Shown one piece after another: positions 16,670 to 39,035 of a stretch of 64,000 nucleotides of DNA. Every line of letters starts with the position of its first letter. Positions within the stretch are counted from its first letter, which is position 1. Both the position numbers and the translations under genes were made by a program. Origin of the DNA: an uncultured Spirochaetaceae bacterium (lineage in GTDB: Bacteria; Spirochaetota; Spirochaetia; Sphaerochaetales; Sphaerochaetaceae); NCBI GenBank assembly GCA_944389505.1, contig CALXMP010000002.1, forward strand, positions 186,001 to 250,000, read 5' to 3'. The notes under the pieces are model-generated. The model ran no database searches and was not told where the DNA came from. It saw only the letters and a list, made by a program, of their open reading frames with translations.

Positions 16670-17893
16670 TCAGTTCTTCGCATCCCTCATTGCAGATGCC
16701 ATGAGCCTGATTGCATTGATGTTTATGAAGCCCTTGCAGTCAATCGGATGATAGCCGCCAGCCTTGTCCATCGATCCGAGGTCCTCGTTGTAGAGGGAGC
16801 AGGGGGATTCGATTCCAGCGTTGATCACATTGCCCTTGTAGAGAGCGACTGTTGCCTTGCCTGTGACGTTCTTCTGGCTCTCCTCGAAGAGTGCTGTGAG
16901 CATGTTGAACTCAGGAGCTCCCCAGTAGCCGTTGTAGATAAGCTCTGCGTATTTCGGAGAGAGCATGTCCCTGAGGTGCATAGCTTCCTTGTCCATGCAG
17001 AGACCCTCGAGGTTGTGGTGAGCCTTCCATAGGATCTCGCATCCCGGAGTCTCATATACGCCCCTGGACTTGATGCCGATGAACCTGTTCTCGACCATAT
17101 CGACCCTGCCGATTGCATTGTCATGGCCCATCTTGTTCAGGTACATGATCATCTCAACAGGCTCTGTGACAACAGTGCCATCGTTCTCGTTCTTCACAGA
17201 CACAGGTGTTCCATCCTTGAACTCGATTGTGAGTATCGTCTCCTTGTCTGCAGCCTTCTGCGGGGAGAGTGTGAGGGAATATACATCCTCAGGACACCTC
17301 TTCGAAGGATCTTCAAGAATTCCCGCTTCATGGGAGATGTGGATCATGTTCTCATCCTCGCTGTAAGGCTTCTTTGTCGTGGCCTTCACAGGGATTCCGT
17401 TCTCCTCAGCGTACTTGAGCATATCGCTTCTGCCCTCGAACTGTGAGAGCCACTCCTCATCCTTCCATGGGCTGATGATCTTAACGTCGGGCATGTTCAT
17501 GTAGTAGCCGAACTCGAACCTTACCTGGTCATTGCCCTTGCCTGTAGCTCCATGCGCTACGTACTTCGTGCCTTCCTTCTTTGCAATCTCGATATGCCTC
17601 TTCGCGATTATAGGCCTTGCAAGCGAGGTGCCGAGCATATATGTTCCCTCATAGATCGTATTGGCCTTGAGGGCAGGGTAGATATAGTCAGTGACAAGAG
17701 GCTTCTTGAGATCTTCTATATATACCTTCGAAGCGCCAGTTGCATAAGCCTTCTCCTCAATGGCCTTGTAGTCTTCGTTCTGTCCTACATCAGCAACGTA
17801 TGCGATTACATCGAATCCCTTATTTGCAAGCCATTTGAGGATAACCGAGGTATCCAGACCGCCAGAGTATGCAAGTATGACTTTATCTTTCAT
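16670..17893 (-). CDS. argG: Argininosuccinate synthase
   Basis: ArgG joins citrulline and aspartate with ATP to form argininosuccinate, the penultimate step of arginine synthesis. The start is the ATG at 17891-17893, with TAGGAG upstream; an in-frame codon further up (17911) would add six residues ahead of the conserved start. The 407-residue protein begins [18 protein letters not shown], the PP-loop ATP site. Further family blocks are [16 protein letters not shown] and [15 protein letters not shown]. Length matches the family (about 400). No argH or other arginine gene is in the window, so this is a solitary gene. Its promoter region carries several ARG-box-like palindromes and a structured RNA further upstream. 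Confidence 0.97.
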
Positions 17894-17916: not shown

Positions 17917-17944
17917 ATTATGCATATTCATAAATTTCTTTCAA
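17917..17944 (-). promoter_or_regulatory. argG promoter
   Basis: On the minus strand TTGAAA (17939-17944), 16 bases, CATAAT (17917-17922). The predicted start near 17910 leaves a leader of about 18 bases containing the TAGGAG ribosome-binding site. Five of six bases match consensus in each hexamer. Confidence 0.7.
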
Positions 17945-18008
17945 GTGATTTTTGAATATTTATGCATAAATTCGGTAAAAAAGGAAAATTCATGCATATT
18001 GTATGAAT
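17918..18008. promoter_or_regulatory. Cluster of three ARG-box-like palindromic sites
   Basis: Site 1 (17918-17933) has arms TTATG and CATAA and lies inside the argG promoter spacer. Site 2 (17953-17966) is TGAATATTTATGCA, close to the Bacillus ARG box form TGAAT-N4-ATGCA. Site 3 (17988-18008) has ATTCAT and ATGAAT arms nine bases apart. Centres are about 35-38 bases apart. ArgR/AhrC hexamers bind paired boxes of this kind to repress arginine synthesis. Repression of argG by an ArgR homologue is therefore inferred; the argR gene is not in this window. Confidence 0.6.
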
Positions 18009-18027: not shown

Positions 18028-18069
18028 TGAAAAAAATAACCTCCAGGCCGGTGAGACAATCTGGAGGTT
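18028..18069 (-). terminator. Intrinsic terminator of the small RNA upstream of argG
   Basis: On the minus strand AACCTCCAG and CTGGAGGTT form a nine-pair stem (plus coordinates 18061-18069 and 18038-18046) with a 14-base loop, followed by one A and seven T residues. This is the strongest intrinsic terminator on the minus strand of this region. Confidence 0.85.
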
Positions 18070-18146
18070 TGCATCCCGGACTACACCGGAACGTCTATGG
18101 CGGTCCCTCTTCTAGGCAACCCGACTGCACGTCATTTAAGCCACTG
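18030..18146 (-). ncRNA. Structured small RNA or riboswitch-like leader, family not recognised
   Basis: A minus-strand transcript of about 117 bases is bounded by a promoter (18153-18180) and the terminator at 18028-18069. GGGTTGC (18116-18122) can pair with GCAAACC (18066-18072) with one mismatch, closing a domain. That domain holds a small hairpin CCGGTG-x-x-x-TCCGG-like (18076-18089) and an ACCG/CGGT stem. The AACC of the closing strand is also the start of the terminator stem, so domain closure and terminator are mutually exclusive. The terminator loop (CACCGG, 18048-18053) is complementary to the hairpin CCGGTG. No match to SRP, 6S, SAM, TPP, FMN, T-box or glycine elements could be recognised. 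It may regulate argG about 135 bases downstream or act as a free sRNA. Confidence 0.6.
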
Positions 18147-18152
18147 ATTAGC

Positions 18153-18180
18153 TTATAACATGAGCTGAGATATTTGTAAA
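18153..18180 (-). promoter_or_regulatory. Promoter of the small RNA
   Basis: TTTACA (18175-18180) and TTATAA (18153-18158) on the minus strand are 16 bases apart, giving a start near 18146. Confidence 0.6.
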
Positions 18181-18293: not shown

Positions 18294-19058
18294 ATGAAAG
18301 GATTTTTCATAAAGAAGGCCTTCTTTGACGGCTGGGATAACCTGATTGCGATTTGTCTGATCAATATCGCATATCTCGGTCTGATCTATCTTGGTTTCAT
18401 AGTGTTCATGGGAGTTCCCTCGCTTTCTGCGCTGGCGATTCCCGTTCTGCTGCTTGTGATCTCCATATTCATGGGAGCAAGCGCATCGGCTGTCCATAAT
18501 TACTCTGATTATAAAGGCGATACATGGAGTGCCCTCAGGTATGGGCTTGTGAGGAATATAAGGCATTCGCTCTTCTTTGCTCTTCTTCTGATACTCGCAG
18601 TGCTGAATATTATCCTGATAATCCCGTTCTATCTGTCATACGGCAATGCCTTTGGCATCCTTATCTCTGTAGTACTTCTCTGGATCGAGCTTATACTCCT
18701 TCTCTGCCTGCCGTATTACTTCCCGCTGATGAACCATCTTCCGGCAGACAGGCCGCTGAAGACAGCGAAGAAGTGCTTCATCATCGTTGGAGATAACTTC
18801 GGGTTCACCATCTTCTTCTTTCTGTACAATATCGTGTGCGCAGCCATGTCTGTCTTCACGATGGGCATCATCCCCGGCATAACGGGCATGCAGCTTGCTG
18901 CAGAGGATGCCATCAGGCTCATGATGATGAAGTATGACTATCTTGAGGAGAATCCCGATGCGGACAGGAAGCATATCCCATGGGAGGATATCCTCTATGA
19001 TGAAAAGGAGAAGGTCGGTCCGAGATCGCTCAAGAACATGATCTTCCCGTGGAAGTAG
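18294..19058 (+). CDS. Multi-pass membrane protein of unknown function
   Basis: The start at the ATG 18294 gives a 254-residue protein beginning KGFFIKKAFFDGWDNL. Upstream TTG 18240 would add a hydrophobic leader but has no supporting signal. Five to six hydrophobic helices lie between about residues 20 and 215, and the last 40 residues are charged and probably cytoplasmic (HIPWEDILYDEKEKVGPRSL). The architecture loosely recalls YesL/DUF624-like membrane proteins, but I recognise no diagnostic motif. It ends three bases before the CYTH gene, so it heads an operon of four genes. Upstream signals suggest a leaderless transcript. Confidence 0.7.
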   Translation: MKGFFIKKAFFDGWDNLIAICLINIAYLGLIYLGFIVFMGVPSLSALAIPVLLLVISIFMGASASAVHNYSDYKGDTWSALRYGLVRNIRHSLFFALLLILAVLNIILIIPFYLSYGNAFGILISVVLLWIELILLLCLPYYFPLMNHLPADRPLKTAKKCFIIVGDNFGFTIFFFLYNIVCAAMSVFTMGIIPGITGMQLAAEDAIRLMMMKYDYLEENPDADRKHIPWEDILYDEKEKVGPRSLKNMIFPWK

Positions 19059-38656: not shown

Positions 38657-39023
38657 GGGGGTGTTCTGGTTTCGACTGGCTTTGCTATGCCATAGACTGC
38701 GGGTCAAGAGCTGACTTGTTAAACCGGCACCAAAAATTAAATGCAAAGAAAGAAGACGAGTACGTCTCTGACGAAGCATTTGCTCTTGCTGCTTGATCGC
38801 AGTTCTGAGCGGGAATCTCTGGGTTAAGCCTCTGGCACTCTGATTCCTTTACCGAAGGGGGCTTTCTCCCAGGCAGTTCGCCGGGCAGGGGAGGAGATTA
38901 AGGCGATGCACCGGATGAACGCTTGTTCTGCTGCCTTAGTCCGGCCAAGATAGAAGCAGGACTATATCCGTAGACGTTTATGGGTGGACTGTTAGGACGG
39001 GAGTTCGAGTCTCCCCACCTCCA
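38657..39023 (+). ncRNA. ssrA: Transfer-messenger RNA
   Basis: tmRNA rescues stalled ribosomes with SmpB. The 5' end GGGGGTGTTCTGGTTTCGAC and the 3' T-arm GGGAGTTCGAGTCTCCC are diagnostic. GGGGGTG (38657-38663) pairs with CACCTCC (39016-39022) as the acceptor stem, with A39023 as discriminator. The terminal CCA is not encoded (TTG follows). The tag frame starts at GCA 38743. The mature RNA is about 367 bases. The TetR gene begins only 12 bases downstream with no terminator between, so they may share a transcript. Confidence 0.95.
38743..38796 (+). other. tmRNA proteolysis-tag reading frame
   Basis: The resume codon GCA at 38743 opens 17 codons encoding AKKEDEYVSDEAFALAA, ending at TGA 38794-38796. 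The final ALAA is the classic ClpXP recognition end. This is a tag inside ssrA, not a separate gene. Confidence 0.9.
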
Positions 39024-39035
39024 TTGCAGAGAGTT

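Follow-up and report, generated by a model that had tools for sequence, protein, structure and literature searches.

A previously unlisted small RNA family, restricted to one spirochaete genus, encoded beside argG

The window analysed here, a stretch of 64,000 nucleotides from an uncultured Spirochaetaceae bacterium, very probably carries a stand-alone gene for a non-coding RNA of about 117 nt, kept in single copy genus-wide, equipped with its own promoter and terminator and presumed to act in trans through one hairpin, P3. The RNA is a real, previously unlisted and genus-restricted family, ordinary in kind and new as a family. An earlier note on this DNA had described an unrecognised structured RNA upstream of argG and had proposed either a switch controlling that gene or an independent small RNA; the comparison of relatives favours the second proposal and speaks against the first.

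Results

Transcription unit and predicted fold

The element lies on the minus strand and consists of the following parts.

18175 to 18180, minus strand: −35 box TTTACA, kept in all relatives listed
18152 to 18160, minus strand: extended −10 element TGtTATAAG with a 17-nt spacer; TG and a TATAAT-like hexamer occur in most relatives
18030 to 18148, minus strand: predicted small RNA of about 117 nt, its start placed from the −10 box and its end from the T run
18140 to 18144, minus strand: 5′ strand of P1, GUGGC, pairing with 18101 to 18097; two-sided changes in four of five pairs
18097 to 18101, minus strand: 3′ strand of P1, GCCAU, partner of 18144 to 18140
18122 to 18134, minus strand: hairpin P2, UGAC/GUCG with a variable loop; two-sided changes in three of four pairs, the fourth invariant
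18102 to 18121, minus strand: hairpin P3, GGUU, a bulged G and CCU against AGG and GACC; nearly invariant
18072 to 18093, minus strand: hairpin P4, CGUUCCGG/CCGGGAUG; two-sided changes in five of eight pairs
18030 to 18069, minus strand: intrinsic terminator AACCUCCAG/CUGGAGGUU with a tail of A and seven U, read from the sequence

The promoter appears to be of the sigma-70 type and to belong to the small RNA itself. Its −10 hexamer can be read in two equally good ways, as TTATAA (18158-18153) at 16 nt from the −35 box, the reading given in the earlier note, or as TATAAG (18157-18152) at 17 nt, with the extended TG at 18160-18159. From the −10 box a start site near 18148 is predicted. In the terminator, AACCTCCAG (18069-18061) pairs with CTGGAGGTT (18046-18038) and is followed by A and seven T; a simple terminator scan missed it because the loop is longer than 8 nt. 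The other elements named in the earlier note were also found in the window, namely the strands GGGTTGC (18122-18116) and GCAAACC (18072-18066), and CACCGG in the terminator loop with CCGGTG in the P4 hairpin. A terminator was found in every relative listed except L019, and its sequence is unrelated between clades even though the terminator itself is kept. In one clade (L025, L026, L027, L222, L224, L226 and L229) the terminator is set off from P4 by about 30-39 additional nt, and this insert could form an extra hairpin, UCGC...GCGA.

The RNA is modelled as a three-way junction of P1, P2 and P3, after which come hairpin P4 and the terminator. Positions 18134-18131 pair with 18125-18122 in P2, 18121-18114 with 18108-18102 in P3, where G18117 is bulged, and 18093-18086 with 18079-18072 in P4. 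The minimum-energy and centroid folds of the window transcript both return P1 to P4 and the terminator, bar one P2 pair; the stretch 18180-18028 includes the promoter and folds differently from the transcript. Aligned relatives share a core running from CAGTGGCTTAAATGGC to GCCAGGTTGCCTAGAAGAGGGACTGCCATAG, followed by a variable hairpin and a variable terminator.

Covariation

The folding energy of 18148-18028 is only moderately unusual (z −1.84), and the mean z of the cores, −1.1, is mildly so. In these alignments it is the comparison across species, rather than folding energy, that lifts the RNA well above chance. Collecting homologues and testing their pairings had been proposed in the earlier note. 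In an alignment of 46 rows, fitted to the covariance model and including two chance matches, 95.1% of cells were paired as opposed to 39.8-54.5% for slid structures, and two-sided change was seen in 12 pairs and 114 cells, where shuffles gave 8.5 and 32.7. When 27 cores were aligned freely with MAFFT, 93.8% of pair cells were standard pairs (slid structures 40-53%) and 10 pairs showed two-sided change, with 49 such cells against 16.2 in shuffles. Mapping the changes onto a tree built from neighbouring proteins showed that individual pairs changed again and again, 7-60 at least five times, 18-28 six times and 19-27 twelve times, so that the covariation signal is not one inherited event.

P1, P2 and P4 are supported by the compensatory changes observed among the aligned sequences. 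The P3 helix is likely on the strength of the predicted fold and the alignment, and is not proved by covariation: 97% of its cells are paired and none shows a two-sided change, all variation being G-U/G-C exchanges and other one-sided changes.

Distribution

The same RNA occurs once per genome across the genus, whose named members are Candidatus Ornithospirochaeta; 44 sequences were examined. A DNA similarity search placed the element in most congeneric genomes. The covariance model matched 33 of the 35 congeneric genomes of the class sample, once in each, with E values from 1e-10 to 1e-19; in the other two (G027 and G033) the contig ends at this locus. Three further congeners (G005, G013 and G022) also carry the RNA. 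Outside the genus no confident match was obtained in 395 genomes of the class and 393 of the phylum, in a search whose first pass and filters may lose weak matches. Candidate homologues outside the genus, two weak ones in G046 and G414 (22-23 bits) and others in the sister genus, look like chance, and in the G046 alignment P3 is broken. Among the matches listed in a contig pattern scan, 36 loci were rescored, and none of named non-spirochaete origin fitted the model. A mobile or phage origin was considered and rejected, since plasmid and phage collections held no match to the RNA and viral contigs scored at chance level only.

The Rfam search suggested in the earlier note matched no family. 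Against Rfam 15 the window copy reached no gathering threshold and had no convincing hit even with E relaxed to 10, and six diverged relatives gave a single weak match, in L022 and on the opposite strand. No description of this RNA was found in openly licensed papers. Together with the compensatory changes in P1, P2 and P4, these searches bear out the description of an unrecognised structured RNA. The sole Rfam match in the window at the gathering threshold is a tmRNA gene at 38657-39026.

The RNA is not a small protein gene, since no reading frame stays open through every core and the loops differ in length by single bases. A conserved small peptide was also considered: a short ATG...TAG frame ends in the conserved CCATAG in L006 and some others, and is broken elsewhere by loop lengths and missing ATGs.

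Genomic neighbourhood

The features flanking the RNA in the window are the following.

16670 to 17893, minus strand: argG, argininosuccinate synthase (Pfam PF00764 and PF20979), a neighbour outside the element
17917 to 17944, minus strand: promoter of argG itself, TTGAAA-16-CATAAT, downstream of the RNA's terminator
17953 to 17966, minus strand: TGCATAAATATTCA, an ARG-box-like element of argG; the promoter sequence around it is also kept in the sister genus, which lacks the RNA
18294 to 19058, plus strand: divergent membrane-protein-like ORF of unknown family, adjoining the RNA in almost every genome

The argG promoter of the window sits between the terminator of the RNA and the start of argG. 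Four sister-genus genomes have the membrane-protein-like ORF and argG directly divergent with no RNA between them, and the argG promoter is the same (a TTGAA-type −35, GCATAAT as −10 and TGCATAAATATT upstream); argG therefore has its own promoter. The element TGCATAAATATTCA resembles an ARG box, and control of this promoter by ArgR is likely from the sequence. The whole promoter region (17917-17966), with TGCATAAATATTCA and TGAATATGCATAAT as ARG-box-like repeats, is conserved in the sister genus.

Downstream of the RNA the gene content is inconstant. argG follows directly and on the same strand in 31 of the 44 sequences, is separated from the RNA by another gene in two (a cupin-like ORF in L005, a lipoprotein-like ORF in L015) and is not found nearby in 11. 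The ORF names, those of the two intervening ORFs included, were read by eye, not taken from a family search. The argG-less loci have rpsB at 150-165 nt in L012 and L019, a convergent ORF resembling DUF970/PstA in L028 and L029, a convergent VanZ-like ORF in L217-L221, a gene for a Cys/Met-type PLP enzyme and then a metA-like gene in L222, and another ORF in L011. The DUF970/PstA-like ORF, by eye like a c-di-AMP receptor, is itself followed by rpsB. The next gene is convergent in seven of the 44 sequences, and on the tree of neighbouring proteins the downstream neighbour changes at least seven times. The upstream, divergent side, made up of the membrane-protein-like ORF and a CYTH-domain protein, is more constant; L019 lacks both and L012 lacks the former. 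The ORF at 18294-19058 matched nothing in Pfam and, above cut-off, nothing in NCBIfam; a search of 28 genomes from inside and outside the family found it in 27.

Discussion

A stand-alone RNA and its possible mode of action

A promoter and a terminator of its own, as read from the DNA, compensatory changes and the lack of a common reading frame mark the element as a small RNA gene. It has the general layout of stand-alone bacterial sRNAs, in which an own promoter is followed by a structured 5′ domain and an intrinsic terminator, and resembles them in size, gene layout, genus-level distribution and the combination of a conserved structure with a variable terminator. It differs from them in that no Rfam 15 family matches, neither Hfq nor CsrA was found and no long, exposed and conserved seed is present.

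We infer that the RNA is expressed. It would be transcribed from its own promoter and ended at its own intrinsic terminator, would fold into the P1-P2-P3 junction, P4 and the terminator, and may then act in trans; the near-invariant P3 segment, GGUUGCC...AGGGACY, would be where a protein or target RNAs make contact. P3 is the most constrained part of the molecule: its helix is weak, has one bulged G and keeps its G-U pairs, and this pattern suits either a shaped site that a protein may recognise or a seed that may be released when P3 opens. No direct evidence supports action by base pairing: the RNA has no long unpaired stretch that is conserved, and across 21 genomes of the genus no extended antisense match to P3 recurs; a long antisense target of P3 was accordingly rejected, the remaining near-matches looking sporadic.

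More tentatively, and with rather less than even confidence, the RNA could be the first representative of a new structured-RNA class, confined to one genus of gut spirochaetes in which Hfq and CsrA are not detectable, and could present the surface of P3 and the junction to a dedicated protein or a small ligand. Its role would then be one of titration or housekeeping and not that of an antisense sRNA.

Control of the downstream gene

A structured RNA that ends in an intrinsic terminator, often before a biosynthesis gene, is what terminator-type riboswitches and T-box or amino-acid attenuators also look like, and the position of the RNA raises the question of control in cis. Its broadest form is an attenuator with an inconstant target, an aptamer domain regulating whichever gene happens to lie downstream. 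The rpsB loci could be read in this way, as the RNA lies 150-165 nt upstream of that gene in L012 and L019 and no terminator was recognised in L019, and so could L222, where by eye the gene for the Cys/Met-type PLP enzyme and the metA-like gene follow. However, the downstream genes share no theme and face the other way in seven genomes, and no conserved alternative pairing couples the terminator to the core. We give this reading only a small chance. A leader of ribosomal protein S2 was rejected as well, since rpsB adjoins the RNA in two lineages only; in the family's other genera, the region before rpsB yielded no homologue of the RNA.

The narrower form, put forward in the earlier note, is a riboswitch or attenuator of argG in which a domain closed by GCAAACC blocks the terminator and lets the polymerase read into the gene. 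The two pairings do share AACC in the window, and the co-directional arrangement in 31 of 44 sequences could still mean a functional link in those. Against this stand the 11 sequences with no nearby argG, the two with an intervening gene and the seven with a convergent next gene, as well as the separate argG promoter, which by sequence is also kept in the sister genus, where the RNA is missing. If an alternative pairing controlled the terminator, each core would be expected to prefer the terminator arm of the same species. Own arms averaged −7.6 kcal/mol and swapped arms −7.9, and 89% of permutations were as good or better; in addition, one clade has the insert of about 30-39 nt ahead of its terminator. 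The GGGUUGC-GCAAACC helix, proposed to exclude the terminator, is itself interrupted in the window (five uninterrupted pairs), reaches four to five pairs in most relatives and is not kept among them. The invariant GGUUGCC strand makes better sense as one arm of P3, a helix that the minimum-energy prediction contains as well. The proposed loop-loop contact is matched by sequence in the window, but the match is confined to the window's small clade and a 7-base run in L004 and L005, and is not general. In contrast to known terminator-type switches, the RNA thus has an inconstant downstream gene, no conserved anti-terminator and an argG promoter set apart; a constant co-directional gene is likewise not seen, nor, judging by sequence, a dependence on read-through. 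Control of argG is therefore very improbable, and the comparison across genomes indicates that the RNA is independent of argG, a bystander and not its switch.

Other identities

A diverged housekeeping RNA that Rfam missed, for example 6S, would also be a single-copy, genus-wide small RNA with a strong conserved promoter, and the Rfam model found no 6S in this genome, a miss that says little since the same model found 6S in 5 of 14 control genomes. 6S RNA (RF00013) is defined by a long rod with a central bubble. The present RNA differs in architecture and length, being a short three-way junction with hairpins of about 117 nt, and no Rfam family, 6S included, convincingly matches any member tested. 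SRP RNA and RNase P RNA were rejected as identities, both being present elsewhere in the genome. The probability of a diverged housekeeping RNA is very slight. A CsrA sponge acting through AGGGA, which is invariant in P3, or an Hfq-dependent antisense RNA, with which the U-rich 3′ end would agree, is hardly credible, as neither CsrA nor Hfq was detected in this genome, which is 96% complete.

Significance

The stand-alone RNA described here adds a well-supported family that Rfam lacks, in a lineage in which regulation by RNA is almost unstudied and the usual helpers of small RNAs, Hfq and CsrA, are undetectable. It also illustrates clearly how synteny across many genomes can tell a riboswitch from a bystander RNA: here the gene downstream changes and the RNA remains, and argG has a promoter of its own even where there is no RNA.
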